Origin: Deroplatys truncata
Lineage: Eukaryota; Arthropoda; Insecta; Mantodea; Mantidae
NCBI GenBank assembly: GCA_030765065.1
Contig: CM060989.1
Location: forward strand, 56,372,001 to 56,436,000
DNA: 64,000 nt
Direction of reading: 5' to 3'
The number at the start of each line of letters is the position of its first letter. Within the stretch, counting starts at the first letter, position 1. Below are positions 1,077 through 61,288 of this stretch, piece after piece. The position numbers were made by a program, and so were the translations under genes. A model generated the notes under the pieces. That model had not been told where the DNA came from, searched no databases, and saw nothing but the letters and a program-made list of their open reading frames with translations.

Positions 1077-1187
1077 TACTTTCCTACTACCTATAGTAAG
1101 TAGGGGAAATATTGCATTCCAACCAAAAATTTGATATCGAGATTTCACTGGAAATGTTTTTGTTGCCCCCAAAACTTTTTTTAGAAA
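1077..1187 (-). mobile_element. family H 3' end, part 1 of a split copy
   Basis: Begins with the minus-strand 3' terminus (TTACTTTCCTACTACCTATA) and the conserved block TTCGATACCGAGATTTCACC in diverged form. It breaks off at an A-run (TTTAGAAAAAA) where the composite array 1192-2964 is inserted. The same copy resumes at 2975. Confidence 0.75.
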
Positions 1188-1191
1188 AAAA

Positions 1192-2750
1192 TCTGATGTG
1201 TTACACTCACATGACTTTCTCTACTCTTGTACAATCTATTTTTACAAACGCCTATTCTCCATATGCTTCATATTAATGGAGATATCGAGATGTCAATCTT
1301 ATTTGTAATTTTCTTGTAGATGCAAGGGGAATATGGTAGCTTTTAAGCGATAGTCAAATATTTTATCGCTGGTTGCTATGTGGCGCATTCCATTCTCTTT
1401 GCATGTCCAGGACATAAAAAAATCTGATGTGTTACACTCACATGACTTTCTCTACTCTTGTACAATTTAATTTTACAAACGCCTATTCTCCATATGCTTC
1501 ATGTTAATCGAGATATCGAGATGTCAATCTTATTGGTAATTTTCTTGTAGATGCAAGGGAAATATGGTAGCTTTTAAGCGATAGTCAAATATTTTAACGC
1601 TGGTTGCTATGTGGCGCATTCCATTCTCTTTGCATGTCCAGGACATAAAAAAAATGAATAACGAATTTGAGAAAAAGTATAAGTATTGGAAAATTTAAGA
1701 AAATAACAAGCAATATCTCGAAAACGGTTCACTCAACAAAAGAAATGTATATGACATAAGTTGTGTATTTTAACGAGATCTACATTTTTTGTGCAGTAAA
1801 ATTTTGTCTATCTCTTATGGTTTACCAGTTATGCAAAAGTCGTTCACAATGAAGAATACTTTTGGAGACATTCCCAGAAAATTCGAGATATACATTTCAT
1901 TTCTCATGACATTATCTTAAACATATGATATTTTAATCAAAATCGTTAGAGCCATTTTTGAGAAAATTAAAATTTTCGAAAAATGTTCCATGTAAAGGGT
2001 AGTCTGGGGTGGGGGGGATTTTCTTGAAAACCTTCGTGTCGCATCTCTGGAAGATACTGAACCCAAATACCAAGTTTGGTGTTTATCCGACTGTTCGTTT
2101 TTGAGTTATGCTGTTCACAGACACACAGACACACACACAGACACACACACGGACATGTTTCCAAAAATGCTTTTTTTGGATTCAAGAGGTCTCAAAACAT
2201 GTATTTCCGGTGAAATCTCGGTATCGAATTTTTGGGTGGAATGCAATACTTCCCCTACTTACTATACGTAGTAGAGAAAGTAAAAATGAATAACGAATTT
2301 GAGAAAAAGTATAAGTGTTGGAAAATTTAAGGAAATAACAAGCAATATCTCGAAAACGGTTCACTCAACAACAAAAATGTATATGATATAAGTTGTGTAT
2401 TTTAACGCGATCTACATTTTTTGTGTAGTAAAATTTTGTCTATCTCTTATGGTTTACCAGTTATGCAAAAGTCGTTCATAATAAAGAATACTTTTGGAGA
2501 CATTCCCAGAAATTTCGAGATATACATTTCATTTCTCATGACATTATCTTAAACATATGATATTTTCATCAAAATCGTTAGAGCCATTTTTGAGAAAATT
2601 AAAATTTTCGAAAAATGTTCCATGTAAAGGGTAGTCTGGGGTGGGGGGATTTTCTTGAAAATCCCCGTGTCGCATCTCTGGAAGATACTGAACGTAAATA
2701 CCAAGTTTGGTGTTTATCCGACTGTTAGTTTTTGAGTTATGCTGTCCACA

Positions 2751-2841
<91 letters not shown>

Positions 2842-2964
2842 CCAAAAATGCTTTTTTTTGGATTCAGGTGGTCTCAAAACGTGTATTTCCGGTGAAATCT
2901 CGGTATCGAATTTTTGGGTGGAATGCAATACTTCCCCTACTTACTATACGTAGTAGAGAAAGTA
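1192..2964 (+). mobile_element. family H composite array (5'-5'-3'-3')
   Basis: Two 5' modules start at 1192 and 1423 (TCTGATGTGTTACACTCACA), each about 220 bp and ending GTCCAGGACATAAAA. Two 3' modules follow, 1651-2282 and 2285-2964, each ending in the hairpin CTACTTACTATACGTAGTAG and AGAGAAAGTAA. Neither 3' module starts with its own 5' module except through the one upstream. The same order and similar length occur at 58894-60677. The first 3' module has a short GACA/CA tract and the second a pure (AC)43. A head-to-tail array with missing internal ends is what rolling-circle read-through can give, but unequal exchange could also produce it. Confidence 0.85.
2752..2837 (+). repeat. (AC)43 microsatellite inside family H
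   Basis: 86 bp of uninterrupted AC, the longest in the window. It lies at the position where other copies carry short GACA/CA tracts, between GTTATGCTGT and the CATGTTTCC-type block. Confidence 0.98.
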
Positions 2965-2974
2965 AAAATATGAA

Positions 2975-3247: not shown

Positions 3248-3257
3248 TAAAAAAAAA

Positions 3258-4058
3258 TCTGATGTGTTACACTCGCATGACTTTCTCTACTCTTGTACAA
3301 ACTATTTTTACAGACGCTTCATGTTAATCGAGATGTTAATCTTATTGCTTATTTTCTTGTAGGTGCAAGGGGAATTGGTAGGCTTTAAGCGATAGTCAAA
3401 TATTTTAAGAGCTGGTTGCTATGTGGAGTATTCCATTCTCTCTGCATTACCAGGACAAAAAAAAAATGAATAACGAATTTGAGATAAAGTGCAAGTATTG
3501 GAAAATTTAAGGGAATAACAAGCAATATCTCGAAAATGGTTCACCCAACAAAAAAATGCATATGACAAATTGTGTATTTTAACGCGATCTACATTTTTTG
3601 TGTAGTAACATTTTGTCTATCTCTTATGGTTTACCAGTTATGCAAAAGTCTTTCACAATGAATACTTTTGGAGACATTCCCAGAAAATTCAAGATATACA
3701 TTTTATTTGTCATGAAAATATCTTAAACATATATTTTAATCAAAATCGTTAGCCATTTTTGAGAAAATTAAAATTTTCGAAAAATGTTCCATGTAAAGGG
3801 TACTCTGGGGTGGGGGGATTTTCTTGCAAACCCTCGTGTCGCATCTCTGGAAGATGCTGAACCTAAATACCAAGTTTCGTGTTTATCCGACTGTTCGTTT
3901 CTGAGTTGTGCTGTTCACACACATACAAGGACATGTTTCCAAAAATGTTTTTTTTATTCAGGGAATCTCAAAACATGTATTTCCGGTTAAATCTCGGTAT
4001 CGAATTTTTGGGTGGAATACAATACTTCCCCTACTTACTGTACGTAGTAGAGAAAGCA
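3258..4058 (+). mobile_element. family H, subfamily A, near full-length copy
   Basis: Complete from TCTGATGTGTTACACTCGCA to the 3' hairpin and AGAGAAAGCAA. The microsatellite is minimal (CACACACATACAAGGAC), close to what an unexpanded tract would look like. Short deletions distinguish it from the reference copy. Confidence 0.9.
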
Positions 4059-4554
4059 ATAATTATAGTAAACAATTCTCTGGTGATTGCTTTATATCTT
4101 TGGGAGAGTGAGACACAAACTAAATTATTTCAACATCAGATTAATGAAACGTTGCAATATTTACGTATATGAAATTATGATACAAGAGTTGAACCGAGTT
4201 TTATTTTACGAATAGGATTTTTTTCGGAACGAGGCTTAAATTCAAGTATAGCAATCCTCTACGAGTAGAATAAAATCACATGTATTATCAAACTAATATT
4301 TGAATATTACATTAAAGTTTCCAGCTGAAACTGTATGGAAATAGCAGTATCTATTGGAACATGCCAAACATGTTTGGCCTTCGTTGATGTCTGACCTCCA
4401 TAGCACTTGTGGTTTTAAGTTCACTTACACAATTATAACATTGTATAATACATGTATAGAAGGCTGTGGTAAAAATAAATCAAAAGTAACAATTATATTA
4501 AAACATTTCACACTATTATTACTTTGATGTAATGTGAAGATTGTTTTACGTTAT
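4059..4554. other. unassigned AT-rich sequence
   Basis: About 500 bp between a family H copy and the LTR-like repeat. No open frame with recognisable similarity and no RNA gene seen. It may include internal sequence of the LTR element, because it lies beyond the candidate primer-binding site. Confidence 0.4.
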
Positions 4555-15816: not shown

Positions 15817-16371
15817 ATATGGGAAAGGACCATTGATTTGACTCCAGCAGTTGCTGATAATTTCCACAATCCATTTCTAAGCATTACTTCACTGACGTGG
15901 ACTTAAGCAACAGCCGCAAACAGGTAAGAGATGAGTGCCATTACTTTACCCACCATTTTGAGAACAGCAGTAGCCTGTGTACACTAAGGATACCCCATCT
16001 GTGAAATTTCAAACATCCACAATTTCAGGCAGATTGATTTGAAATATAACAATGAGGGTTTAGTGTCTAATATGTAGACGAAATGTAATGCACATTTCTA
16101 AATTAGTTCGAGATAATTTATTATTTTACTTTTTTACCGTTTTGAAAAAACTGCCCCAGACATGCAATTTGTTTTGAAAACATTAATATTCAATAGATAA
16201 AACTCTTTAATATACTATATAAATAAGTTTTAGAGATTACTTTCTAATTAAGTATATTAATTTGTGCGAAAGTAATCGTTCAATATAGAATTCAATTATT
16301 TGCTTAAAAAGTATACAACATGAAAATTGTTTAATGACATAACCAAGCATTTTGAAAAATTCGTCGCATTT
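15817..16371. other. unassigned sequence
   Basis: AT-rich, with no recognised feature; lies between the hairpin element and a family H copy. Confidence 0.4.
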
Positions 16372-17160
16372 TTATTTTCTCTACTACGTATAGTAAGTAG
16401 GGAAAGTATTGCATTCCCCCAAAAATTAAGTACCGAGATTTCACCGGAAATACTGTTTTGAGGTGCCCTGAATCCAAATAAAGCATTTTTAGAAACGCGT
16501 CCGTGTGTGTCTGAACAGGATAACTCAAAAAACGAAAGTCGGATAAATACCAAACTTGGTATTTGAATTTAGTATCTTCCAAGGATGCGACAAGAAAGTT
16601 TTCAAGAAAATCACCCTACCCCAGACTACCCTTTATATGGAACATTTTTCGAAAATTGATTTTCTCATAAACGGCTAACGATTTTGATTAAAATATATGT
16701 TTAGGATATTTTTTTATGGCAAATGAAATGTTTATCTTGAATTTTCTGGGAATGTCTCCAAAAGCTCTCTTCATTCTTAATGACTTTCGCATAACTGGTA
16801 AATCTTAAGACATAAGATAAAATGTTATACCAAAAATGTAGATCTCGTTAAAACATAGCATATGTTTTAATTTTTTGTACTTTTTTTTATCGAGTGAACT
16901 ATTCCGAGATATTCCTAATTTGTTTAAATTTTCTCGTTATTGGTTTTTTTATGTCCTGGACATACAAAGAGAATGGAGTGCTCCACATAGGAACCAGCTC
17001 TTAAAAGATTTGACTATAGCTTAAAGCCTATCATATTCCCCTTGCATCTACAAGAAAATTAGCAATACGATTAACATCTCGATTAACATGAAGTAGATGG
17101 AGAGTAAGCGTTTGTAAAAATAGTTTGTACAAGAGTAGAGAAAGTCATGAGTGCAACAGA
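16372..17160 (-). mobile_element. family H, subfamily A/C intermediate, full-length
   Basis: Runs from TTTTCTCTACTACGTATAGT to GAGTAGAGAAAGTCATGAGT. The microsatellite site is a short GTGTGTGTCTGAAC. Scattered differences from the reference suggest moderate age. Confidence 0.88.
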
Positions 17161-18830
17161 TATTTTATCCTGTTATTTACAGTGAGTTATACCAAACTTA
17201 TTTATGCCGAAAACTACCTCGTGTGGCACAAATTGAAAATGAGAAATTGCTTTCCGTCTTTTTCTGTTCTGCAATTCTTAGATCTCTTGAATGGTTTGTT
17301 CACTTATATAAGCAAAACCTGTCGTTCTTTACTACAGTTTTGTAGCAATTTAGGCTTGCAAGCAGACATGCATCACTATGACATGCTATAAAACCTATAT
17401 GGAACTGAAGTACAGGTTTTGTAGTCCTGTAATAACACAAATTATGAATGTTGGCAATTTGTCCTTTTTAGCATAAACATGTGCTATTTAATGTATTAGA
17501 AAGGATTTTAGACATGGAAAATAGGAGTATGTGATGCCAGAGGTAAGGAAATATCGGGAAGGGAACAAAGGATCGCTCACAACATCCATGGTAGGCATTC
17601 TCCACACAATATACTCGTTTGCGTAACACCATGCTCTACGCATTGTTGGATGCTTTGCCGCACTTCCGGTTACACCGCCAACTACATCCGGACCGCATCG
17701 AATCCTCAAGCGTAACAAGTATCTGATTTGTCACAGGTTTCGAAGAAAACCTGGAAGCGCTTTATTTGTACAACCATCTCCAATGGTGGCTAGACGTAAA
17801 CAACGCAAGATGTCTGCTTATCCTTCCCAATCCCTGGGATCGAAGAAAGTTTGTCACTGAGGTCTTTATTTTACTGTTGCAAGGGCAGTTAATTTAGAAG
17901 AGTAGACTTTGGAGATCATATATTATTAAAGGTTTGGCGCGGCGATTTAGAATAAAATAGAATATTTGTGTCGAACATTATACAAAGTTTTTAAGTATAT
18001 TTATCTTAAAGCTACTTACATTCTAGTGCTAATTAAATTAAATTTTACTTCCTTTTAAGCGCTACTTTTCACCTGGCTTTCAATTAGCCCTTATTTTTTT
18101 CTTCCCTTTCCACTCTTATTTGCCTAGAAAGCTCTCGCATATCCTTGATACATCTACCCCCCTTAACTTAATATTTTTATTTCCTTGCTCATTTTGGCCC
18201 ATATTGGATCCCAAACATCCTGTCTCCACTCCTCATTACATTCTACCAAGTAATGTATTTTATTCTCCTTTTCTCCACTTCCTCTTAACCCTCTAAGAAA
18301 GATGGTCCCTGTTCTCATCCATGCTAAACCTTCCCTATCCTGTCTGCTACATGTCAACATAACATTTTCTCCCTTAATCTTTTTAATTGTAGTATATAAG
18401 GACTATTTTCAAGGCTTCCCCAGGTACACTAATTTCTATAATATGGACAGAAAATCATTTAAAAGTTTTCAGCATAAAATATAACAAAACAAGCAAAAAA
18501 AAAAAATTATTTGTATTTGTTGAGTGGCGCAAAACTACTGCGCCCATCAACGCCACCCTCTGGCTATAGATTTATTCATGTCGAATACATAAGCAGCACA
18601 AAACTTAATTACAGGGTAAAGCAACCGAGATTAGAAAAGTAGAAAAAACAATAAATACACGTTAAAAAAACTCGCAAATCAATATATACCAGGACCAATC
18701 CTCAAACACAAGCAGTTAAATCAGTACTATCAGAGTGAAAGTCATTACCACCAGAAATTATGCGAATTATTACCATCCTCGACTAACAATGAGAAATATG
18801 TAACAAGTGGCATTACCAAAATAAAAAAAA
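17161..18830. other. unassigned island with a possible retroelement relic
   Basis: About 1.7 kb without family H. It contains a candidate retrotransposon tail at 18163-18360 and otherwise nothing I recognise. The small minus-strand open frame at 17488-17718 has no known motif. Confidence 0.4.
18163..18360 (-). pseudogene. possible C-terminal remnant of a non-LTR retrotransposon
   Basis: The conceptual product contains RQDREGLAWMRTG, a hydrophobic stretch, GEKENKIHYLVECNEEW and RQDVWDPIW. Its layout resembles the zinc-ribbon-like tail of some arthropod non-LTR ORF2 proteins (a Cys before an -EC-..EWR block). There is no reverse transcriptase domain nearby. The call rests on general pattern only. 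Confidence 0.25.
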
Positions 18831-19648
18831 CCTGATGTGTTACACTCACATGACTTTCTCTACTCTTGTACAAACTATTCTTACAAACTCTTATTCTCCA
18901 TATGCTTCATGTTAATCGAGATATCAATCTTATTGCTAATTTTGTTGTAGATGCAAGGGGAATTGGTAGGCTTTAAGCGATAGTCAAATATTATAAGAGC
19001 TGGTTGCTATGTGGCGCATTCCATTCTCTTTGCATGTCTAGGACAAAAAAAATGAATAACGAGTTTGAGAAAAAAGTATAAGTATTGGAAAATGTAAGGG
19101 AATAACAAGCAATATCTCGAAAACGGTTCACTCAACAAAAAAATGTATGACTAAGTTGTGTATTTTAACGCCATCTACATTTTTGTGTAGTAAAATTTTG
19201 TCTCTCTCTTATGGTTTACCAGTTATGCAAAAGTCGTTCACAATGAAGAATTCTTTTGGCGACATTCCCAGAAACTTCGAGATATACATTTCATTTCTCA
19301 TGACATCATCTTAAACATATGATATTTTAATCAATCGTTAGCCATTTTTGAGAAAATTAAAATTTTCGAAAAATGTTCCATGTAAAGGGTAGTTTCGGGT
19401 GGGGGATTTTCTTGAAAACCTTCGTGTCGCATCTCTGGAAGATACTGAACCTAAATACCAAGTTTGGTGTTTATCAGACTGTTCGTTTCCGAGTTATGCT
19501 GTTCACAGACACAGACAGACACGTTTCCAAAAATGTCTTTTTGGATTCAGGGGGTCTCAAAACATGTATTTCCGATGAAATCTCGGTATCGAATTTTTGG
19601 GTGGAATACAATACTTCCCCTACTTACTATACGTAGTAGAGAAAGTAA
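18831..19648 (+). mobile_element. family H reference copy (subfamily A, full length)
   Basis: 818 bp, intact at both ends. The 5' end CTGATGTGTTACACTCACAT can fold (ATGTG with CACAT) and is followed by ACTTTCTCTACTCTTGTAC. The 3' end has the hairpin CTACTTACTATACGTAGTAG and then AGAGAAAGTAA, whose complement again reads ACTTTCTCTACT, so the two ends carry a 12-bp subterminal inverted repeat. It lies in A-runs on both sides with no separate target duplication. The microsatellite is CAGACACAGACAGACACG. The layout matches non-autonomous Helentron/DINE-1-like elements as a group. An alternative is an unusual SINE, but no Pol III boxes are seen. Confidence 0.88.
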
Positions 19649-21785: not shown

Positions 21786-21792
21786 AGCTTTA

Positions 21793-22638
21793 TTACTTTC
21801 TCTACTACGTATAGTAAGTAGGGGAAGTATTGCATTCCATCCAAAAATTCGATACCGAGATTTCACCGGAAATACATGTTTTGAAGCCCCATGAATCCAA
21901 AAAAAGCATTTTTGGAAACATGTCCGTGTGGTGTGTCTGTGTGTGTGTGTGAACAGCATAACTCAGAAACGAACAGTCGGATAAACACCAAACTTGGTAT
22001 TTACGTTCAGTATCTTCCAGAGATGCGACACGAAGGTTTTCAAGAAAATCTCCCCACCCCAGATTACCCTTTACATGGAAGATTTTTCGAAAACTTTAAT
22101 TTTCTCAAAAATGGCTCTAACGATTTTGATGAAAATACCATATGTTTAAGATAATGTTATGAGAAATGAAATGTATATCTCGAATTTTCTGGGAATGTCT
22201 CCAAAAGTATTCTTCATTGTGAACGACTTTTGCATAACTGGTAAACCATAAGAGATAGACAAAGTTTTACTACACAAAAAATGTAGATCGCGTTAAAATA
22301 CACAACTTATGTCATATACATTTCTTTTGTTGAGTGAACCGTTTTCGAGATATTGCTTGTTATTTCCTTAAATTTTCCAATAATACTTTTTCTCAAATGC
22401 GTTATTCATTTTTTTTATGTCCTGGACATGCAAAGAGAATGGAATGCGCCACATAGCAACCAGCGTTAACATATTTGACTATCGCTTAAAAGCTACCATA
22501 TTTCCCTTGCATCTACAAGAAAATTACCAATAAGATTGACATCTCGATATCTCGATTAACATGAAGCATATGGAGAATAGGCGTTTGTAAAATTAGATTG
22601 TACAAGAGTAGAGAAAGTCATGTGAGTAACACATCAGA
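21793..22638 (-). mobile_element. family H, subfamily A, full-length
   Basis: Intact from TTACTTTCTCTACTACGTAT to GAGTAGAGAAAGTCATGTGA. It shares diagnostic bases with the composite arrays (TACCAATAAGATTGACATC, GCTTAAAAGCTACC), so it belongs to the same young lineage. Microsatellite GTGTGGTGTGTCTGTGTGTG. Confidence 0.92.
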
Positions 22639-22914
22639 TTTTTTTGTCTTGGATATGCAAAGAGTTATCTGTGGCAAAGGGAATGGTGCTGCACCTAGCA
22701 ACCAACTATTAAGAGATATGTATATGCTTAAAGGCTACTGTTTCTCTATATTGCCCTTGTAAATATATTTTCCCCTACATCTACAAGAAAATTAGCAATA
22801 AGATAGAGTTTGCAAATGTTTATCTCGATTAACATGAACTAGATGGAGAATAAGCGTTTGTAAAAATACTTTGTACAAGAGTAGAGAAAGTCATGTGAGT
22901 GTAACACATCAGAT
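22639..22914 (-). mobile_element. family H extra 5' module (B type)
   Basis: A second 5' module placed head-to-tail upstream of the previous copy, from TTTGTCTTGGATATGCAAAG to CATGTGAGTGTAACACATCA. Together the two make a 3'-5'-5' order on the minus strand, a partial version of the composite array. Confidence 0.85.
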
Positions 22915-27370: not shown

Positions 27371-27377
27371 GAAAAAA

Positions 27378-28161
27378 TCTTAATGTATTACACTCGCATG
27401 ACTTTCTACTCTTGTACGAACTATTTTTACAAACGCTTATTCCCCATATGTTTCATGTTATTGCTAATTTTCTTATAGATGCAAGGGGAATTGGTAGGCT
27501 TTAAGCGATAGTCAAATATTTTAAGAACTGGTTGCTATGTAGAGCATTCCATTATCTTTGTATTACCAGGACAAAAAAAAATGAATAACGAATTTGAGAA
27601 AAAGTATAAGCATTGGAAAATTTAAGGGAACAAGCAATATCTCAAAAATGGTTCACTCAACAAAAAAACTGTATATGACAAATTATGTATTTTAACGCGA
27701 TCTACATTTTTTTGTGTAGTAAAAGTTTGTCTATCTCTTATGGTTTACCAGTTATGCAAAAGTCGTTCACAATGAAGAATGCCTTTGGAGACATTCCCAG
27801 AAAATTCGAGATATACATTTCATTTGTCATGAAAATGTCTTAAACATATTATATTTTAATCAAAATCGTTAGCCATTTGAGAAAATTAAAATTTTCGAAA
27901 AATGTTCCATATAAAGGATGAGGTGGGGGATTTTCTTGAAAACCTTCGTGTCGCATCTCTGGAAGATACTGAACCTAAATGCCCATTTGGTGTTCATCCG
28001 ACTGTTCGTTTCTGAGTTATGCTGTTCTCACACTCGCACACCTTTTTCTAAAAAGGATATTTTGGGATTCAAGGGCTTCAAACATGCATTTCCGGTGAAA
28101 CCTCGATATCGAATTTTTAGGTGGAATGCAATACTTCCCCTACTTACTATACGTAGTAGAG
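27378..28161 (+). mobile_element. family H, subfamily A, near full-length
   Basis: 5' end mutated (TCTTAATGTATTACACTCGC), 3' hairpin intact but the terminal AGAAAGTAA lost (TAGAGTATGTCCC). The microsatellite site is CTCACACTCGCACACC with no expansion. Confidence 0.88.
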
Positions 28162-30565: not shown

Positions 30566-30737
30566 AAAGTAAAACAAATTTTTAATCTCTGGGCTTTTTA
30601 TATTGTTTCATTATTCCTCTTTACAAGAGCCGATTCTCCAAACTCTGTTCCACGAAAATGTTTTAAAACTTATGCGGATGTTTTGGATGATAAACTATTT
30701 TAACTGTATATTTTCGCGGAAAGAACTATCTGAAAAA

Positions 30738-31492
30738 CTGATGTGTTGCACTCGCATGACTTTCTCTACTCTCTAAAAACTATTTTTACAAACGCTTATT
30801 CTCCATCTACTTCATGTTAATAGAGATAAACATTTGTAGAAACTTATCTTGCTGCCAATTTTCTTGTAGATGCAAGGGAAATATGGTAGGCTTTAAGCGA
30901 TAGTCAAATATTTTAGGAGCTCGTTGCTATGTGGAGTATTCCATTCTCTTTCCTATGAGAAAAAGTAGGAGTGTTGGAAAATTCAAACAGATAACAAGGA
31001 ATATCTCGGTAATGGCTCTCTCCAGTATATACATACAACGAATTAACTAGCTACACATTTTTTTTCGTATAAAAAATTTATTATGGTTTACCAGTTCTGT
31101 AAAACCCATTCAGAAAGGATATTTGGGGACATTCCCAGAAAATTCTAGATATACATTTTATTTGTCACGAAAATCTCTTAAATATGGTATTTTAAACAAA
31201 ACCGTTAAGAGCCATTTTTAAGAAAATCAAACTTTTCGAAAAATGTTCCATGTAAAGGGTAGTCTGGGGTGGGGGGATTTTCTTTAAAATCCCCGTGTCA
31301 CATCTTTGGAAGATGCTGAGCCTAAATACCAATTCTGGTATGAGTTATGCTCTTTAGACACATTGACCTTTTCTAGAAAGTATTTTTTGGATTCAGGGGA
31401 CCTCAAAACATGTATTTCCGGTGAAATCTCTGTATAGAATTTGGGTGGAATGCAATACTTACCCTTCTTACTGTATGTAGTAGAGAAAGTAA
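30738..31492 (+). mobile_element. family H, subfamily A, near full-length
   Basis: 5' end CTGATGTGTTGCACTCGCAT, 3' end ACTGTATGTAGTAGAGAAAG. The microsatellite site is nearly absent (TTTAGACACATTGACC). Confidence 0.88.
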
Positions 31493-33221
31493 AAATATAC
31501 AGGACTGAATTTAAAACTTTTTTCGAGGTCAACTCACAAAGGATGTTAATGGGTTGTTCCTGTGAAAAAGTGTCTTAAAATATACTGTTTTGCGCGTCTT
31601 GTTTTTTTTGGGGGGGGGAAGTTTCCATTTAACTGTAGCAGAAAATATACGGGACTTTTGAAACGCACTGTATAAATACTTATTTCATTTTTTTTAATAT
31701 TGTTTATTAAGCGTTTCATTCAGTCAAGTCTTAGCAAATACCACTCGTGAGTTAGATATTACCCAGATAAGATAACTGTAAAAATCATGCCTCGCATCGG
31801 CTTGCGATAAAAGGCTTTCTGCATGGATTGAAAAACCTCTTCGTAAAGTCATACTTGACTGCAACGCAAGCGCCGTTCTTAAACGCATTGACACCGGTAA
31901 CGTAATGCAGATACGTTGCCCTTTATTATATTTCTAATTAAAATCCGAATTTATCTTTTGAATAGAGTAGATTTGAGCTGTTTCCTGTGACCTTCAAGCA
32001 GGACGATGTACGAATATTAATTGTAATGCAAGATATACAGACGCTGAGGTTGAGTAAAATAGCTTATACGCACACTTTTCATTAACTGACTGGATAGCAA
32101 GATCTATGGGACTTATTCAGATATTTAGTTCGCTTTGGATTTCATCAAACTAGGTTGGGGTCTTTTTGAAAGGTTGAACACAAATTTATTGAAGTCTAAG
32201 TTGGACTGCATATTCTCTGGCCAAAAAGAGGGAGGAATTAAGGTAAGAAATTATTTAAGTTACGTTCAGGCGATTGTAATTTGATTATAACCACCACATT
32301 GAACAGTTTTTCATGCAGAAGCATAAGAGGACTTAAGTTTACCATGGTAAACGAATTCTCTACCTCGCAGATAATCAAAGTGCTTTAAAGGCGCCCTCTT
32401 CAGAACAAGTGAAATGAAAACTGTATGACAATGCCTAAATGTCTTGATTGCCCTGTTATCTCGAAATACGATGAGACATAAGGCATCTACGGAAATAAAG
32501 TTGATCAGCTGGCTAAAAGGATACCGAGGTATAGGGGAAACAAATTAATGGAAGTTCCCAAAAATTAAACATAGCCGACTTATCACTAAAATGAATTACT
32601 GTCAAACTTACAACGGTACTGCTATTTCCAAGAGTCTGAATAACCTATAGAAACAGGACATGCATTTTCGTATACCTGGCCCATTTTAACAGCTGTGCAA
32701 CTTAAAACGGACGATATAATGACTTAAAATCTATAAAAGTTTCATAACTAACATTTACAGTACAAGCAGTTTACCAGATATATCTGGAATAAAGAAAAAA
32801 TCTTTTCATATTCAAATTTATCAATAAACTATAGCCACATTTATTAACAGGGCCTTAGTCCACTTCTCTATCTCTACTGCAAAGCGGTGGAAAAAATAAC
32901 GGATCAAAGCAAAGACAATTAAAAAAAAAGTATTGAAAAATTGTTTTAAAACAATTAGAAAATGCGGAGCAGTAATTTAAGCACAAATAGTTCCAAATAA
33001 ACGCTTAAGTGAAACACAATGGCGTCTACACAACTAAGGATACTTTACGCTTTGTTTCATTGCGTAATTTCTTATGGTATCCATACTTAGGGCAATAGTG
33101 CCAATATATACAAAGTATTAACTCTGCAGAAAAATATCTTAAGAATTATAACTGGTTCATTGTCGACCTATATTTAAATATTTTAAAATCCTGACACTAT
33201 TTAATGGGGCCACAAATCTTT
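31493..33221. other. largest non-repetitive island of the middle region
   Basis: 1.7 kb with no family H, SINE or transposase. A G-run (GGGGGGGGG) lies near 31609. I see no open frame or splice-flanked exon I would defend. Confidence 0.45.
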
Positions 33222-34001
33222 TTACTTTCTCTACTACGTATAGTAAGTAGGGGAAGTATTGCATTCCACCCAAAAATTCCATACCGAGATTTCACCGGAA
33301 ATACATGTTTTCAGACCCCCTGAATCCAAAAAAAGCATTTTTGGAAACATGTCCGTGTGTGTCCGTCTGTGAACAGCATAACTCAGAAACGAACAGGCGG
33401 ATAAACACCAAACTTGGTATTTAGGTTCAGTATCTTCCAGAGATGCGACACGAAGGTTTTCAAGAAAATCCCCCACCCCAGGCTACCCTTTACATCGAAG
33501 ATTTTTCGAAAATTTTAATTTTCTCGAAAATGGCTCTAACGATTTTGATTAAAATATATGTTTAAGATATTTTCATGACAAATAAAATGTATATCTCGAA
33601 TTTTCTGGGAATGTCTCCAAAAGTATTCTTTATTGTGAACGACTTTTGCATAACTGGTAAACGATAAGAGATAGATAAAATTTTACTATACGAAAAATGT
33701 AGATCGCGTTAAAATACACAATTTATGTCACACATTTTTGTTGTTGAGTGAACCATTTTCGAGATATTGCTTGTTATTACCTTAAATTTTCCAATACTTG
33801 TACTTTTTCTCAAATTCGTTATTCATTTTTTTTTCGTCCTGGTAATACAAAGAATGGAATACTCCACATAGCAACCAGCTCTTAAACGCAATAAGATTAA
33901 CATCTCGATATCTCGATTAACATGAAGCATATGAAGAATAAGCGTTTGTAAAAATAGGTTGTACACGTGTAGAGAAAGTCATGTGAGTGTAACACATCAG
34001 A
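33222..34001 (-). mobile_element. family H, subfamily A, full-length
   Basis: Intact 3' hairpin, subterminal motifs at both ends, short microsatellite GTGTGTGTCCGTCTGTG. It lies in A-runs on both sides (minus-strand AAAGATTTG at the 3' flank and ATATAAAAA at the 5' flank). Confidence 0.92.
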
Positions 34002-34021
34002 TTTTTATATACTGTTACACA

Positions 34022-37640: not shown

Positions 37641-37732
37641 TACGTACCTACTAGGTAGAGAAAGTATTGCATTCCACCAAAAAATTCGATCGAGTTTTCG
37701 CCGGAAATACAGGTTTTGAGGCACCCTGAATA
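37641..37732 (-). mobile_element. family H 3'-end fragment interrupted at an A-run
   Basis: CCTACTAGGTAGAGAAAGTA through CACCCTGAATAAAAAAA. It breaks at the run where resident copies read CCCTGAATCCAAAAAAAGC, the same site hit at 1187. Confidence 0.7.
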
Positions 37733-37738
37733 AAAAAA

Positions 37739-38456
37739 TCTGATGTGTTACACTCACATGGCTTTCCCTACTCTTGTACAAACTATTTTTACAAACGCTT
37801 ATTCTCCATATGCTCGAAATATCGAGATGTTAATCTTATTGCTAATTTTCTTGTAGATGCAAGGGGAATATATATTTACAAGGGCAATATAGAAATACAG
37901 TAACCTTTAAGCACATACATACCTCTTAATAGCTGGTTGCTAGGTGCAGCACCATTCCCTTTGCCACAGCTTAATACTCTTTGCATATCCAAGACAAAAA
38001 AAAAATGAATAACGAATTCCCATTTGAGAAAATAAGTATTGAAAAATATAAGGAAATAACAAGCAATATCTCGAAAATGGTTCACTCAAAAAAAAATGTA
38101 TGACAAATTATGTATTTTAACGCGATCTACATTTTTTTGTGTAGTACAATTTTGTCTCTTATGGTTTACCAGTTATGCAAACGTCGTTCACAATGAAGAA
38201 TACTTTTGGAGACATTCCCAGTAAATTCAAGATATACATTTTATTTTTCATGAAAATATCTTAAACATGATATTTTAATCAAAATCGTTAGCCATTTTTG
38301 AGAAAATTAAAATTTTCGAAAAATGTTCCATGTAAAGGGTAATCTGGGGTGGGAGAATTCTCTTGAAAACCTTCGTGTCGCATCTCTGGAAGATACTGAA
38401 CCTAAATACGAAGCTTGGTGTTTATCCGACTGCTCGTTTCTGAGTTATGCTGTTCA

Positions 38457-38510
<54 letters not shown>

Positions 38511-38640
38511 CATGTTTCCAAAAATGCTTTTTGTGGATTCAGGGGGTCTCAAAACGTATATTTCCGTTGAAATCTCGGTATCGAATTTTTGGGTGGAATA
38601 CAATACTTCCCCTACTTACTATACGTAGTAGAGAAAGTAA
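37739..38640 (+). mobile_element. family H, subfamily B, full-length
   Basis: 902 bp, both ends intact. B-type insert (TATATTTACAAGGGCAATAT to CACAGCTTAATACTC). Carries an expanded (AC)25. Confidence 0.92.
38458..38507 (+). repeat. (AC)25 microsatellite inside family H
   Basis: Pure AC tract at the family's fixed microsatellite position, between GTTATGCTGTTCAG and GGACATGTTTCC. Confidence 0.97.
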
Positions 38641-39335
38641 AAAATTCTGCTGCGATACATTCACATGACTCTTCTCTAACTTTATAGTGGGTATACAAAT
38701 TATTCTTACCAAAGCTTATTCTCCCATCTAATTCACTTTAGTCAAGATAAATCTTTCCGGAAATAGCTACATTACACATTATAGATACAAAGGGAATAGC
38801 GACAGTCAAGTGTTACACAACTAGAACTGCGAATTCCTCGGAAGCGGCCGATGCCACAAAAATAAATAAGTGTTTTAAAGAGATTACCTTTTCTGTGTAG
38901 TATGTTTTCGTCTATAGTTTAACGTTTATCAGTATTACAAGATTATACGAAATTCCTTCCGAATGTAGAGAACTTCTAGGCTATTCCCAGAAAATTCAAG
39001 ATACACATTTCACTTGTCATGCAAGTATTTTAATAAAAAACTTTAGAACCATTTTTATAATATTAAAAATTTCGAAAAATAATTCTAGTAAAGGGTTTTT
39101 GGGATGCGGGGATTTTATCGAAAAACTTTGTACTTAAATACAAACTTTGGTATTCCGACTTTTCGTTTGAGTTATGCTGTTCACAAACCCACAGACATAC
39201 ACGAACCTTTTTCTAAGAATGCTTTTTTGGATTCGGGGGATCTCAAAACATGCATTAAAATGAAATCTCTGTATAGAAATTTTGGGTGGAATGCAGTATC
39301 TTCCCTACTTACTATGTACGAGGTAAAGAAATTAA
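38641..39335 (+). mobile_element. family H, subfamily C, tandem to previous copy
   Basis: Starts directly after the preceding GTAAAAAATT with a C-type 5' end (CTGCGATACATTCACATGAC) and ends GTACGAGGTAAAGAAATTAA. Interior deletions. Confidence 0.78.
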
Positions 39336-39575: not shown

Positions 39576-39655
39576 TTTTTCAAGTCGCTTTTCATTTTTT
39601 CTCGTTGACGGGCAAAGTGTCTCGAATTTCACATAACGATCCGCTTATTTAAAAA

Positions 39656-40453
39656 TCTGATGTGTTACACTCGTATGGCTACTCTTGTACAAACTATTTT
39701 TACAAACACTTATTCTCCATCTACTTCATGTTAATCGAGATAAACATTTGCGGAAACTATCTCATTGCTAATTTTCTTGTAGGTGCAAGTGGAATATGGT
39801 AGGCTTTAAGCGATAGTCAAATGTTTCAAGATCTGGTTGCTATGTGGAGCGTTTCATTCTTTGCATGTCTTGGACATAAAAAAAAACTAATAACGAATTG
39901 CCATTTGTGAAAAAGTATAACTATTGGAAAATTCAAACAAATAAGGAATATATTTGAAATGGTTCACTCCACAAAAACGTGTGACAAATGTGTTATAAAG
40001 AGATCTACATTTTTTGTGTAGAAAAATTGTCTCACGTTTACCAGTAATGCAAAGGCCATTCAGAAAGAAGACTTTTGGGGACATTCCTAGAAAATTCAAG
40101 ATATACATTTCATTTGTCATGAAAATATCTTAAACATGTGGTATTTTAACCAAAATCGTTAAAGTCTTTTTGAGAAAATCAAAATTTTCGAAAAATGTTC
40201 CATGTAAAGGGTAGTCTGGGGTGGGGGGATTTTCTTGTAAAACCCCGTGTCGCATCTTTGAAAGATACTGAACCTAAATCCCAAGTTTGATATTTATCCG
40301 ACTTTTCGTTTGAGTTATGCTGTTCGCAAACACACACGAACTTTCTTTTCTTAGCGACTCTTTTGGATTCAGAGGACCTCAACATATGTATTTCCGGTGA
40401 AATCTCGGTATAGAATTTTTTGGTGGAATATGATGCTTCCCCTACTTACTCTA
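39656..40453 (+). mobile_element. family H, subfamily A, 3' end lost
   Basis: 5' end TCTGATGTGTTACACTCGTA intact. It stops within the hairpin (CTACTTACTCTACC). The microsatellite site is GCAAACACACACGAAC. Confidence 0.87.
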
Positions 40454-40664
40454 CCAAAAACTCTTACTATCGAAGTTAAATGCCTTCTTCTCTCAAAATA
40501 GTTAGCCAGCGATTCTAAAACTGTGGGGCGTGTATCTAGATGGGCTGGCTCGAATAAATTATCAATACAAAGCATCAGAAAAAATGTTTGCCAAATCGAG
40601 CTTACGTTCCAGCATATCTTTCTATCGCATATTATTACAGCGAACGAAGAATTATACAAATACT
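40454..40664. other. unassigned spacer
   Basis: Nothing recognised. Confidence 0.35.
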
Positions 40665-43484: not shown

Positions 43485-43498
43485 GTTTTAGAAAAAAC

Positions 43499-44333
43499 CT
43501 TATGTGTTACACTCACATGACTCTCTCTACACTTGTACAAACTATTTTTACAAACGCTTATTCTCCATATGCTTCATGTTAATCGAGATATCGAGATGTT
43601 AATCTTATTGCTAATTTTCTTGTAGATGCAAGGGCAATTGGTAGGCTTTAAGCGAGTCAAATATTTTAAGAGCTGGTTGCTATGTGGCGCATTCCATTCT
43701 CTTTGCATTACCAGGACAAAAAAAATGAATAACGAATTTGAGAAAAAGTATATTTTAGGGAATAAAAAGCAATATCTCGAAAATGGTTCACCGAACAAAA
43801 AAAATGTATATGACATAAATTGTGTATTTTAACGCGATCTACATTTTTTGTGTAGTAAAAGTCTGTCTATCTCTTATGGTTTACCAGTTATGCAAAAGTC
43901 GTTCAGAATGAAGAATACTTTTGGAGACATTCCCAGTAAATTCGAGATATACATTTCATTTGTCATGAAAATATCTTAAACATATGATATTTTAATCAAA
44001 ATCGTTACAGCCATTTTTGAGAAAATTAAAATTTTCGAGAAATGTTCCATGTAAGGGGTAATCTGGGGTGGGGGGGATTTTCTTGAAAACCTTCGTGTCG
44101 CATCTCTGTAAGATACTGAACCTAAATACCAAGTTTGGTGTTTATCCGACTGTTCGTTTATGAGTTATGCTGTTCACTGACACACAGACACACACACGGA
44201 CATGTTTCCAAAAATGTTTTTTTTTTTTGGATTCAGGGGGTGTCAAAACATATATTTCCGCTGAAATCTCGGCATCGAATTTTTGGGTGAAATACAATAC
44301 TTCCCCTACTTACTATACGTAGTAGAGAAAGTA
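43499..44333 (+). mobile_element. family H, subfamily A, full-length
   Basis: 5' end slightly mutated (CCTTATGTGTTACACTCACA), intact 3' hairpin and AGAGAAAGTAA. Microsatellite CTGACACACAGACACACACA. Confidence 0.92.
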
Positions 44334-44448
44334 AAAATGAAAACTTTAAATAAAAATCATTTCTGCAACAATTTATCCTAGTGCTCGAATTAATTATGTC
44401 ATAGCTTGATCAATTTAAAAGTCTAACAAAAACCACATGTCAGTTTTT
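44334..44448. other. unassigned spacer
   Basis: Nothing recognised. Confidence 0.35.
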
Positions 44449-48127: not shown

Positions 48128-48489
48128 ATGAATATCTTAAAGCATTTTTGGAAACATGTCCGTGTGTATGTCTGTCTGTCTGTCTGTGAACAGCATAACT
48201 TAGAAACGAACAGTCCGATAAACACCAAACTTGGTATTTAGGTTCAGTATCTTCCAGAGATGCGACACGAAGGTTTTCAAGAAAATCCCCCCAACCCAGA
48301 TTACCCTTTACATGTAATATTTTTGGAACATTTTAATTTTCTCAAAAATGGCTCTAATGATTTTGATTAAAATATCATATGTTGAAGATACTTTCATGAC
48401 AAATGAAATGTATATCTTGAATTTTCTGGGAATGTCTCCAAAAGTATTCTTCATTGTGAACGACTTTTGCATAACTGGTAAACCATAAA
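48128..48489 (-). mobile_element. family H, subfamily A, left part of a split copy
   Basis: Begins at AAAGCATTTTTGGAAACATG (3' hairpin missing), passes the microsatellite GTGTGTATGTCTGTCTGTCT and stops at AACTGGTAAACCATAA. The copy resumes at 49393 beyond an inserted plus-strand element. Confidence 0.85.
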
Positions 48490-48492
48490 AAA

Positions 48493-49392
48493 TCTGATGT
48501 GTTACACTCACATGACTTTCTCTACTCTTGTACAAACTATTTTTACAAACGCTTATTCTCCATCTACTTCATGTTAATCGAGATAAACATTTGCAGACTC
48601 TATCTTATTGCTAAGTTTCTTGTAGATGCAAGGGGTATATATATATATTTACAAGGGCAATATAGAAATACAGTAGCCTTTAAGCACATACATATCTCTT
48701 AATAGCTGGTTGCTAGGTGAAGCACTATTCCCTTTGCCACAGATTAATACTCTTTGCATATCCAAGACAAAAAAATGAATAACGAATTCCCATTTGAGAA
48801 AATAAGTATTGAAAAATTTAAGGGAATAACAAGCAATATCTCGAAAATGGTTCACTCAACAAAAAAAATGTATATGACATAAATTGTGTATTTTAACGCG
48901 ATCTACATTTTTTGTGTAGTAAAATTTTGTCTATCTCTTATGGTTTACCAGTTTACCAAAAGTCGTTCACAATGAAGAATACTTGTGGAGATATTCCCAG
49001 AAAATTCAAGATATACATTTTATTTGTCATGAAAATATCTTAAACATATGATATTTTAATCAAAATCGTTAGAGCCATTTTTGAGAAAATTAAAATTTTC
49101 GAAATATCTTCCATGTAAAGGGTACTCTGGGGTGGGGGTTTTTCCTCAAAACCTTCGTGTCGCATCTCTGGAAGATACTGAACCTAAATACCAAGTTTGG
49201 TGTTTATCCGACTGTTCGTTTCTGATTTATGCTGTTCACAGACAGACACACAGACACACGGACATGTTTCCAAAAATGCTTTTTTTGGATTCAGGGGATC
49301 TCAAAACATGTATTTCCGGTGAAATCTCGATATCGGTTTTTTGGGTGGAATACAATAATTCCCCTGCTTACTATACGTAGTAGAGAAAGTAA
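48493..49392 (+). mobile_element. family H, subfamily B, inserted in another copy
   Basis: 900 bp, complete from TCTGATGTGTTACACTCACA to AGAGAAAGTAA. Left and right neighbours are the two parts of one minus-strand copy, with about 25 bp of it missing at the junction. Direct evidence of insertion into an A-run (ACACAAAAAATGTAG in intact relatives). Microsatellite CAGACAGACACACAGACACA. Confidence 0.92.
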
Positions 49393-49757
49393 AAATGTAG
49401 ATCGCGTTAAAATACATACTTTATGTCATATACATTTTTTGTTGTTGGGTGAACCATTTTCGAGATATTCCTTGTTATTCCCTTAAATTTTCCAATACTT
49501 ATACTTTTTCTCAAATTCTTTATTCATTTTTTTTGTCCTGGTAATGCAAAGAGAATGGAATACTCCACATAGCAACCAGCTGTTAAAATATTTGACTATC
49601 GCTTAAAGCCTACCAATTCCCCTTGCACCTACAAGAAAATTAGCAATAAGATTAACATCTCGATATCTCGATTAACATGAAGCATGTGGAGAATAAGCGT
49701 TTGTAAAAATAGTTTGTACAAGAGTAGAGAAAGCCATGTGAGTGTAACACATCAGAA
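49393..49757 (-). mobile_element. family H, subfamily A, right part of the split copy
   Basis: Resumes AAATGTAGATCGCGTTAAAA and ends normally at GAGTAGAGAAAGCCATGTGA and CATCAGA. It in turn cuts the end of the CR1-like fragment. Confidence 0.88.
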
Positions 49758-52774: not shown

Positions 52775-52776
52775 TA

Positions 52777-57342: not shown

Positions 57343-57537
57343 TATACACAGGGCGGGCCATTTAAGTTGAGACTATACATTATCTCCAAAACTAAGCGTT
57401 GTAGAAAGAAATGCCTTTAATACTAAGTTGCCTGATATTATGGAGAAAAGTAAATGTCATTAGTCGTGTTTTATTTGGTGGACGTTGTGATGGTTATTTT
57501 AGGGTCAATTTAATTTTTTTAAATGGGAGCTACCTTT

Positions 57538-58374
57538 TTACTTTCTCTACTACGTATAGTAAGTAGGGGAAGTATTGTATTCCACCCAAAAATTCGATAC
57601 CGAGATTTCACCGGAAATATATGTTTTGAGACTCCCTGAATCCAAAAAAAGCATTTTTGGAAACATGTCCGTGTGTGTGTCTGTGAACAGCATAACTCAG
57701 AAACGAACAGTCGGATAAACACCAAACTTGGTATTTAGGTTCAGTATCTTCCAGAGATGCGACACGAAGGTTTTCAAGAAAATCCCCCCACCCCAGACTA
57801 CCCTTTACATGGAACATTTTTCGAAAATTTTAATTTTCTCAAAAATGGCTATAACACTTTTGATGAAAATATCATATGTTTAAGATATGTTCATGACAAA
57901 TGAAATGTATATCTCGAATTTTCTGGGAATGTCCCTAAAAGTGTTCTTCATTCTGAACGACTTTTGCATAACTGGTAAACCATAAGATATAGACAAAATT
58001 TTACTACACAAAAAATGTAGAACGCGTTACAATACACAATTTATGTCATATACATTTCTTTTGTTGAGTGAACCGTTTTCGAGATATTGCTTGTTATTCC
58101 CTTAAATTTTCCAATACTTATACTTTTTCTCAAATTCGTTACTCATTTTTTTTGTCCTGGACTTGCAAAGAGAATGGAATGCGCCACATAGCAACCAGCG
58201 CTTAAATATTTGACTATCGCTTAAAAGCTACCATATTCCACTTGCATCTACAAGAAAATTACCAATAAGATTGACATCTCGATATCTCGATTAATATGAA
58301 GCATATGGAGAATAGGCGTTTGTAAAAATAGATTGTACAAGAGTAGAGAAAGTCATGTGAGTGTAACACATCAG
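57538..58374 (-). mobile_element. family H, subfamily A, full-length, inside the foldback's left arm
   Basis: Intact ends; belongs to the lineage of the composite arrays (TACCAATAAGATTGACATC). The foldback arm reads TACC before it and TATGTTGTTTTCTCAC after it, as in the uninterrupted right arm (GGCATTTTGTATGTTGTTTTC), so the site was a T-run on the plus strand. Confidence 0.93.
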
Positions 58375-58689
58375 ATTTTTTATGTTGTTTTCTCACTCTT
58401 CATAAGAAACTAAACTACATTTGTATAAAACACTTTGTAATTGTTCTTATACCAACGTAAATGACAACGAAAATCTGAATGGCTGTGTATGAGGAGTGTA
58501 ATGAATGGTTGGATCATCCATTTGAGGATCAAGTTACGTTTCGTAATTGGGAATCAACATTTTTTATTTTGTTTCCTTATTCCTCATCTAAAAATAAACA
58601 GCTTTATAAACCATTTTCTAGTGCGAAAACAACATACAAAATGCCGATTCCCAATTAAAAAAATTAAATTGATCCTAAAATGACCATCA

Positions 58690-58893
58690 CAAGCCGACCC
58701 TCGTAGCCGTGGTCTCTGGAGTAGTCGCTCCGGCGCTCCGCCAAGCTGAGGGTCGCGGGTTCGAGTCCCGCCACGGGCATGGGTGTTTGTGTGTGTATAT
58801 GTGTTGCGGAAATAAACGGTAAAATAACAAAAAAAAAAACAGCTAAACACAGTAGTGTAAATCTGGGAAAGACAAGGGAACTTTAAAAAAAAA
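58690..58893 (+). mobile_element. tRNA-derived SINE (fifth type)
   Basis: CCCTCGTAGCCGTGGTCTCT and TCTGGAGTAGTCGCTCC form the A-box side. GGTCGCGGGTTCGAGTCCCG is an excellent B box. A GTGT-rich body and A-runs follow. The duplication TCACAA at 58687-58692 recurs at 60680-60686, on the far side of the composite array, which therefore inserted into this SINE's A-rich tail. Confidence 0.85.
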
Positions 58894-59816
58894 TCTGATG
58901 TGTTACACTCACATGACTTTCTCTACTCTTGTACAATCTATTTTTACAAACGCCTATTCTCCATATGCTTCATATTAATCGAGATATCGAGATGTCAATC
59001 TTATTGGTAATTTTCTTGTAGATGCAAGGGGAATATGGTAGCTTTTAAGCGATAGTCAAATATTTTATCGCTGGTTGCTATGCGGCGCATTCCATTCTCT
59101 TTGCATGTCCAGGACATAAAAAAATCTGATGTGTTACACTCACATAACTTTCTCTACTCTTGTACAATCTAATTTTACAAACGCCTATTCTCCATATGCT
59201 TCATGTTAATCGAGATATCGAGATGTCAATCTTATTGGTAATTTTCTTGTAGATGCAAGGGGAATATGGTAGCTTTTAAGCGATAGTCAAATATTTTAAC
59301 GCTGGTTGCTATGTGGCGAATTCCATTCTCTTTGCATGTTCAGGACATAAAAAAATGAATAACGAATTTGAGAAAAAGTATAAGTATTGGAAAATTTAAG
59401 GAAATAACAAGCAATATCTCGAAAACGGTTCACTCAACAAAAGAAACGTATATGACATAAGTTGTGTATTTTAACGCGATCTACATTTTTTGTGTAGTAA
59501 AATTTTGTCTATCTCTTATGGTTTACCAGTTATGCAAAAGTCGTTCACAATGAAGAATATTTTTGGAGACATTCCCAGAAAATTCGAGATATACATTTTA
59601 TTTGTCATGACAATATCTTAAACATATGATATTTCAATCAAAATCGTTAGAGCCGTTTTTGAGAAAATTAAAATTTTCGAAAAATGTTCCATGTAAAGGG
59701 TAGTCTGGGGTGGGGGGATTTTCTTGAAAACCTTCGTGTCGCATCTCTGGAAGATACTGAACCTAAATACCAAGTTTGGTGTTTATCCGACTGTTCGTTT
59801 TTGAGTTATGCTGTTC

Positions 59817-59888
59817 ACAGACACACAGACACACAGACAGACACACAGACACACAGACACACAGACACACAGACAGACACACACACGG
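59817..59888 (+). repeat. compound GACA/CA microsatellite in family H
   Basis: About 72 bp of mixed CACAGA and CAGA units in the first 3' module of the array. Confidence 0.95.
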
Positions 59889-60480
59889 ACATGTTTCCAA
59901 AAATGCTTTTTTTGGATTCAGTGATTCTCAAAACATGTATTTCCGGTGAAATCTCGGTATCGAATTTTTGGGTGGAATGCAATACTTCCCCTACTTACTA
60001 TACGTAGTAGAGAAAGTAAAAATGATTAACGAATTTGAGAAGTATAAGTATTGGAAAATTTAAGGAAATAACAAGCAATATCTCGAAAACGGTTCACTCA
60101 ACAAAAGAAATGTATATGACATAAGTTGTGTATTTTAATGCGATCTACATTTTTTGTGTAGTAAAATTTTGTCTATCTCTTATGGTTTACCAGTTATGCA
60201 AAAGTCGTTCACTATGAAGAATACTTTTGGAGACATTCCCATAAAATTCGAGATATACATTTCATTTCTCATAACATTATCTTAAACATATGATATTTTC
60301 ATTAAAATCGTTAGAGCCATTTTTGAGAAAATTAAAATTTTCGAAAAATCTTCCATGTAAAGGGTAGTCTGGGGTGAGGGGATTTTCTTAAAAACCTTCG
60401 TGTCGCATCTCTGGAAGATACTGAACCTAAATACCAAGTTTGGTGTTTATCCGACTGTTCGTTTTTGAGTTATGCTGTTC

Positions 60481-60506
60481 ACAGACACACACACTCAGAC
60501 ACACAG

Positions 60507-60538
<32 letters not shown>

Positions 60539-60545
60539 ACACACG
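60481..60545 (+). repeat. compound CA/CAGA microsatellite in family H
   Basis: About 65 bp in the second 3' module, with a different pattern from its neighbour. Confidence 0.95.
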
Positions 60546-60827
60546 GACATGTTTCCAAAAATGCTTTTTTTGGATTCAGGAGGTCTCAAAACATGTATTT
60601 CCGGTGAAATCTCGGTATCGAATTTTTGGGTGGAATGCAATACTTCCCCTACTTACTATACGTAGTAGAGAAAGTAAAAATCACAACGTCCTCCAAACAA
60701 AACACAACTATTGGAATTTACTTTCCCCCATAATATCAGGCAACTTTTATTAAAGACATTTCTTTCTACAACGCTTACTTTTGGAAATATTATACAGTCT
60801 CAACTTAAATGGCCCACCCTGTATACA

Positions 60828-61288
60828 CAAATATATATGTTTGTTAATGACGCTGTCAATTGCCAGGATTATATCAGCACCGCCGGTGTGCCTGAATTTT
60901 GTCCCGCAGGAGTTATTTTACATGCCAGTAAATCTACTTACGAAGTAGGTAAAAAGAATCTAATTTATAATTTGTTTATAAATATTGACTGTCTAAAAAA
61001 CTAGTGTGTGACAGGCATGTTCAGGGCAGTTTTATTTTGCTCGCAGGATAAAATCTCGCTTTTAACTCCTGTATCATACATAACTTACCTGCTAGTTAAC
61101 GACTATATCTCTCACTCTCTTTTACTCTCTCCCCAGTAGTGACCAGGTCAAATAGACGTGCTTCGCCTCGTAAGTAATCTTTCTAGCCGCGTCTGGGTTT
61201 TCTTACAATCTTTCTTTTCGAGTGATACAGCAATACTCGTTTTATTAATTTAGTTCTTGTATTTAGAAAATATGAGCCTTTCAGTTTT
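60828..61288. other. unassigned sequence
   Basis: Flank of the foldback; no feature recognised. Confidence 0.35.

Follow-up and report, generated by a model that had tools for sequence, protein, structure and literature searches.

A high-copy non-autonomous Helentron family in the mantis Deroplatys truncata and the Rep/helicase elements that share its ends

The repeat at 18831-19648 of the Deroplatys truncata DNA analysed here (the window: 64,000 nucleotides, G000:C15:56372001-56436000, in a genome of 4.29 Gb and 818 contigs) is almost certainly a non-autonomous Helentron (HINE, of the DINE-1 kind), whose ends would be recognised by the Rep/PIF1-helicase of Helentrons about 10.4 kb long. The minus strand of the copy shows all the parts of a textbook HINE, set in T-runs without target duplication, and the HINE family itself makes no protein. 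Short and long elements have common ends, the long ones encode Rep and helicase domains, and the copies sit in T-run sites, some of them head to tail or nested. Moreover, a composite, in which the 5' part of a HINE lies upstream of a second 5' end and of the Rep gene, was found at two unrelated sites. The first-pass annotation, made from the window alone, had proposed a high-copy non-autonomous Helentron family; this kind is upheld by the Rep/helicase element that shares the ends of the repeat.

The consensus and the ends of the family were defined from 38 copies with both ends aligned (window and L002-L028). The named copy (L001) was left out of the copy-end, insertion-site, fold-row and consensus counts, and L002-L008 in these counts had been selected by likeness to it. 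On the minus strand the consensus runs from TT-ACTTTCTCTACT at the 5' end, through the complementary GTAAGTAGGGGAAGT and a microsatellite, to AGTAGAGAAAGT-CATGTGAGTGTAACACATCAGATT at the 3' end. The two arms, ACTTTCTCTACT and AGTAGAGAAAGT, are 12 bp long, within the roughly 11-15 bp of HINE and Helentron subTIRs, and 100% complementary in the named copy, so that the inverted repeats first described near both ends are confirmed; the A-runs on both sides and the internal microsatellite are likewise present, and longer microsatellite arrays occur in other copies. The polarity, by contrast, had been reversed. The direction in which the partner Rep gene reads, together with the subTIR spacing, makes 19648 the 5' end and 18831 the 3' end. 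The ATGTG/CACAT end that had been read as a foldable 5' end does exist, but it is the 3' palindrome; a hairpin is also present at the other end, where it corresponds to the 5' subTIR paired with the adjacent inverted repeat and not to a 3' hairpin. On the plus strand, many copies show the layout A-run, (T)CTGATGTGTTACACTCACATGACTTTCTCTACT ... CCCCTACTTACTATACGTAGTAGAGAAAGT, A-run, with sharp ends. In that reading 27 of 38 copies start with TC, and a T follows the AGAAAG of the other end in 37 of 38.

The DNA of the 5' end folds better on the minus strand (z -3.36, with none of 200 shuffles as good) than on the plus strand (z -1.46). The fold of the 3' end is weak when taken alone (z -1.08; 31 of 200 shuffles fold equally well). 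From 83 rows, 17 copies were chosen, and in these 78.7% of the cells of the 5' fold are paired, against 41-57% with slid partners. The pair changes do not exceed their control (78.7% pairing versus 77.8% in a shuffle of the 3' letters): one pair is altered on both sides in 5 of the 17 rows, but the structure as a whole does not beat the shuffle.

Table 1. Parts of the named copy and other family copies in the window (strand in Helentron polarity).
Feature	Position	Strand	Remark
HINE copy (named copy)	18831..19648	-	5' end 19648, 3' end 18831; A/T-run flanks excluded
5' subTIR ACTTTCTCTACT	19635..19646	-	2 nt from 5' terminus; family consensus starts TTACTTTCTCTACT
5' subTIR and complementary inverted repeat	19613..19646	-	15-pair fold on minus strand
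Short microsatellite	19504..19522	-	ACAG/ACAC type, in 5' part
Internal T8 run	19045..19052	-	A8 on plus strand; used self-insertion site, nested copies at consensus 613-617
3' subTIR AGTAGAGAAAGT	18853..18864	-	inverted-repeat arm
3' palindrome	18835..18851	-	ATGTG-7 nt-CACAT, few nt from 3' terminus
Nested insertion, complete	1185..2968	-	full copy 1416-2286 in T8 run of copy 1185-1421 + 2282-2968
Full-length copy	3250..4062	-	blastn
Nearly full-length copy	16369..17161	+	query 35-851
Full-length copy	21789..22645	+	adjoined directly by consensus 617 onward of another copy, 68% identity
Nearly full-length copy	27372..28161	-	blastn
Full-length older copy	30733..31495	-	73% to named copy
Full-length copy	33219..34006	+	blastn
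Subfamily copy with inverted internal segment	34765..35707	+	query 154-238; like layout in L010, L018, L020, L024
Two head-to-tail copies, second a fragment	37732..38755	-	one common A/T-run at about 38640
Nearly full-length copy	39651..40454	-	blastn
Full-length copy	43489..44337	-	blastn
Full-length copy	48487..49395	-	blastn
Full-length copy within another repeat	57535..58381	+	related empty site in L006
Second nested insertion	58886..60680	-	layout like 1185..2968; 59118-60022 inside, outer flanks differ
Full-length copy	61285..62127	+	blastn

Over a third of the window belongs to this one mobile family. A blastn search with 18801-19670 gave 62 matches (E<=1e-4) covering 23,688 of the 64,000 bases (37%), in agreement with the two fifths first estimated; the coverage was 36.0% with the element alone as query and 38.5% with the family consensus. 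The count of about 45 copies or fragments was right in order, the figure of 62 being one of matches, into several of which a single copy may be split. In the nested insertion at 1185-2968, the outer-copy part 2282-2968 holds a CA array at 2747-2837. No same-direction 5' part of the copy that adjoins 21789-22645 was found directly before it. The subfamily with the inverted query segment 154-238 has a further window member at 63158-63966, besides that of Table 1 and the four sampled loci given there, and this rearranged form seems to have multiplied in its own right.

Neither Rfam nor a tRNA search found anything in the window. Other transposon remains were observed in it: broken frames of mariner (Mos1-type) transposase at 52766-53923 and 10191-10625, both on the minus strand (Transposase_1 2.3e-21, HTH_48); a broken Tc-type element at 54813-56202 on the plus strand, with a HTH_Tnp_Tc3_2 match followed by two frames without Pfam match; and, at 46061-46444 on the plus strand, a frame matching the DUF4817 helix-turn-helix (5.3e-13), probably another transposon gene.

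The flanks read AA/AA on the plus strand in 32 and 34 of the 37 copies with both ends, and no target duplication was found, as first reported: 31 of the 37 flank pairs share no string beyond As, while 30.5 are expected from random pairing. Comparison of filled and empty nested sites gave about eight As in the empty copies versus seven before and five after the element when filled, with nothing besides As duplicated among the pairs listed. Head-to-tail copies with one common A/T-run were observed in L019 as well as in the window pair of Table 1. When only junctions with full flanks were counted (window and L009-L028, with the script's rule of adjacency), 18 of 52 3' junctions (35%) and 9 of 39 5' junctions (23%) adjoined another copy, the family filling about 20% of the same sequence. 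Any excess over this fill is modest, and self-targeting is not claimed as a cause of local crowding.

The first-pass annotation had suggested a search for a Rep/helicase element that begins and ends with the terminal 30 bp of the repeat, and such an element was found. Searching the genome with PF14214 (Helitron_like_N) yielded at least 152 matches (150 of 291 candidates scored), and among the matches listed at least 18 sit in stop-free frames of 2,108-2,543 aa. Two of these autonomous partners, hereafter masters, lie on C9 and C13; each is about 10.4 kb long, and they are 99.2% identical over 10.46 kb while their flanks differ. The family consensus matches the master start (about 620 bp) at 93.9% on C9 (over 636 bp) and at 89.8% on C13; for the last 35 bp the identity is 94.3% in both masters. 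It is at this 3' end, matched by the consensus, that the mutual identity of the two masters stops. The master carries the same 5' subTIR as the HINE and 11 bp of the 3' subTIR. In the last 60 bp, 35 bp match at 94% and the rest aligns poorly, which leaves the pair below the 80% of the subfamily criterion, and upstream of the final 35 bp there is little in common. Judged by these alignments, master and HINE would be of the same family, but not of the same subfamily, in the Thomas scheme.

The last 267 bp of the master gave 250 candidates in the genome. All 40 that were scored are 97-100% identical, and all 40 stop at position 263-267 of the query, within the T-run. In four further masters a HINE 5' end was present in each of the four 461-bp stretches inspected, 15-38 nt from the position computed from the 3' end; this is not expected by chance, because such end motifs occur about once per 9 kb (21 in 197.5 kb). 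Two of the four have same-direction HINE sequence, up to consensus 615-616, directly upstream of this 5' end, and a third has HINE sequence in the opposite direction there. These three may be longer stacks, or be inserted in a HINE, and the 5' end found is possibly an inner one in some of them. Open frames together with near-identity suggest that the master is probably active. Another group of Rep matches in the genome scores higher against Pfam (up to 196 bits; for instance C1:38116489-38117034 and C13:170325206-170325754). Most of its best matches contain stops, and these are perhaps older Helitrons of another kind.

The masters are themselves composite. In the C9 unit the order is consensus 1-622, 1-704, an inverted piece (711-434), 314-511 and then the gene, and this order recurs in the C13 unit. 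Since the layout is found at two sites that are unrelated, the composite has moved as a single unit. Over the 4.9 kb that follow the 3' end on C9 no family match was found, so that nothing of the outer HINE is left there. In the simplest reading, replication would have started from the outer 5' end and run as far as the inner 3' end. On C13 a full HINE precedes the unit in head-to-tail order, and the two lie in the T5 run that a third copy has near consensus 117. PMC4067079 and PMC7492417 describe comparable tandem and composite Helitrons, the latter paper stating that the inner copies of tandems are often cut at the 3' end; the stacked pattern is not new in kind.

The master protein P0001 is a 2,324-aa frame, stop to stop (L029:1129-8100). 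Pfam matches above cut-off are DUF6570, Helitron_like_N (1.2e-27), PIF1 (1.9e-28) and Pif1 2B (3.1e-7), and Helraiser is among its PDB matches (E 1.4e-22). Rep motif 2 reads VEFQMRGSPHEH, with the G-S-P form; according to PMC4067079, the S between G and P is the Helentron form. At the N-terminus of this frame, which also holds Rep and helicase, a Herpes_teg_N match covers residues 67-212 (1.2e-8). Between this tegument-type protease match and the Rep part lies a 21-aa charged repeat; in 11 of the 18 listed frames, the length differs from 2,324 by a multiple of 21 aa (0 included), which suggests that the number of repeats varies between master copies. The C-terminus (residues 2136-2292) matches Exo_endo_phos below the Pfam cut-off (13.6 bits against 24.5, E 0.057), and its assignment as a putative endonuclease is a weak one, based on where it lies and on visual reading of one stretch. 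An RPA frame was not detected: apart from the Rep frame, nothing of 150 aa or longer is open in the C9 master (stop to stop, six frames, introns ignored). Mite Helentrons have an RPA frame; one is not known from every Helentron.

A search of the genome with the named copy gave 8,575 first-look candidates, and the 40 that were scored, the named copy included, are all long matches at 90-100%. The family share was 13.6-14.6% in 20 regions of 10 kb (197.5 kb without N), 8.0-9.5% in 20 regions of 1.2 kb (interval 0-21%, with any match in 3 to 5 of the 20) and 13.0-14.0% in the 40 regions pooled (221.5 kb, bootstrap 8.9-18.2%), the two ends of each range coming from two queries; matches of at least 80% identity make up 7.2-7.4%. 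The 10-kb regions were set by hand at round coordinates on C1-C15, leaving out the contigs beyond C15 (about 0.8 Gb), and the 1.2-kb regions come from 80 that a script had drawn, the first 20 being used after trimming to 1.2 kb. Two controls were run on the 20 sampled 10-kb regions, one with their sequence dinucleotide-shuffled and one with the query reversed and the regions left as they are; each covered 0 bases. If the samples are representative, the family appears to amount to about 0.4-0.8 Gb, roughly an eighth of the genome. The 21 5' ends and 27 3' ends counted by end motif in the 197.5 kb extrapolate to about 0.46 and 0.59 million per genome, rough figures from few counts. The spread is uneven, with no named-copy match in four of the twenty 10-kb samples (L022, L023, L025 and L027) and more than 30% in L019 and L024.

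Such a mass is high, but for the class as a whole it has precedents. Helitrons make up 6% of a bat genome and 6.62% of a butterfly genome, as quoted in PMC4067079, both below the share of this single family, and about 4.23% is given for the silkworm. For the Pacific oyster, PMC7992393 reports DNA transposons as 32% of the assembly, with Helitrons the most abundant among them. In gomphocerine grasshoppers, which also have large insect genomes, 7-20% of the repeatome is called helitron (PMC7486953), a precedent for high mass; that figure concerns the class as a whole and comes from reads, whereas one family with its ends and its master is described here.

The published Helentron model would account for these observations as follows. 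The Rep/PIF1-helicase protein of the master, with its endonuclease-like tail, would recognise the 5' subTIR together with the repeat that it folds against, and the 3' subTIR together with the palindrome. One strand would be nicked in the T-run beside the element, displaced in the 5' to 3' direction by rolling-circle replication until this is stopped at the 3' end, and then joined into another T-run. We infer that the master protein moves the HINE family, in what order the nicks are made, and that the intermediate is single-stranded; as arrangements of sequence, the composites and the tandem copies fit rolling-circle movement.

Three other origins were considered, and all were rejected on the ends, the lack of target duplication and the Rep element with the same ends. 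The repeat could be a MITE, that is a deletion derivative of a DDE cut-and-paste transposon using the ACTTTCTCTACT inverted repeats, and the 12-bp repeats near both ends, the mariner/Tc transposase fragments in the window and the former description of DINE-1 itself as a MITE (as related in the literature) would all suit such an origin. These repeats are, however, subterminal and unequally placed, the flanks share strings no more often than random pairs do, and the element with the same ends encodes Rep and helicase; we consider a MITE very improbable. A processed repeat such as a SINE, with an A-tail copied by a LINE, would explain the A-runs on the plus strand and the A-rich sites, but hardly their presence on both sides of the copies without target duplication, nor ends held in common with a Rep element, and this origin is improbable in the extreme.

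The canonical Helitron reading (TC...CTRR, between A and T) arises when the element is read in the orientation first assigned to it, in which many copies begin A-TC. The TC starts counted above speak for it, as does the existence in this genome of the other, higher-scoring Rep matches, most of the best of which carry stops. But the other end is GTAA followed by A, where a canonical Helitron would have CTRR and then T, the direction of the Rep gene is the opposite one, and the master Rep has the GSP form of Helentrons, so that a canonical Helitron is highly unlikely. The Helentron reading is the one retained in what follows.

The kind of element was already known from the work of Thomas, Vadnagara and Pritham (2014, PMC4067079), and the present family is a new member of it, as far as tested. 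A search by title of the literature on Helentrons and insect Helitrons, made without comparison to Repbase/Dfam, gave no description of the family among the papers listed. The HINEs and Helentrons of PMC4067079 resemble it in the 5' subTIR 2 nt from the end, the 3' subTIR inboard of a palindrome, insertion in T-runs with a varying number of Ts and no target change, short forms with the ends of a Rep/PIF1 element, the GSP motif 2, and tandem and composite copies. In the mite HINEs of that paper the subTIRs stand 2-4 nt inside the 5' terminus and 38-60 nt inside the 3' terminus, a palindrome lies at the 3' end, and insertion is into T-runs, also without target change. In the mantis, by comparison, about 24 nt separate the 3' subTIR from the 3' terminus, and about 6 nt the palindrome (8-35 in PMC4067079); compared with the Helentrons treated there, no RPA frame was seen, the endonuclease match is weak, and the masters bear stacked HINE 5' parts. 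By the description in the same paper, DINE-1 of Drosophila is alike in its inverted repeat with the 5' side inside the 5' subTIR, its microsatellite and its 3' stem-loop.

Cg_HINE of the Pacific oyster (PMC7492417) has a similar left flank (subTIR, complementary inverted repeat and microsatellite) and a similar right one (subTIR and palindrome). It differs in its satellite-like central repeats and, in the account given there, in that no master could be related to it, whereas a master was identified here. The Herpes_teg_N match in the Rep/helicase frame recalls Helentrons with a herpes-tegument-type deubiquitinase (VTD), PMC9741609 assigning most VTDs outside viruses to Helitron frames, those of the Helentron subclass; the likeness is one of predicted domains, and the 21-aa charged repeat that follows the domain here sets the mantis protein apart from those VTD Helentrons.

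HINEs can be known without their master, as in the oyster, but here a HINE and a Rep element are paired by both ends within one genome. A broader reading, which we hold tentatively and at somewhat less than even confidence, is that this one Helentron family, with a master that is still active, is among the largest single DNA-transposon families by mass and grows partly by stacking. A Helentron landing in the T-run of a HINE would then be re-mobilised from the outer 5' end of that HINE, and the master would gain HINE 5' parts. If this is true, every new copy supplies fresh T-run landing sites. With intact-looking masters, scored 3' ends 97-100% alike and a very large family, this genome is a good place to test how Helentrons choose their ends and sites, and the family offers a test of how one non-coding family can swell a genome.
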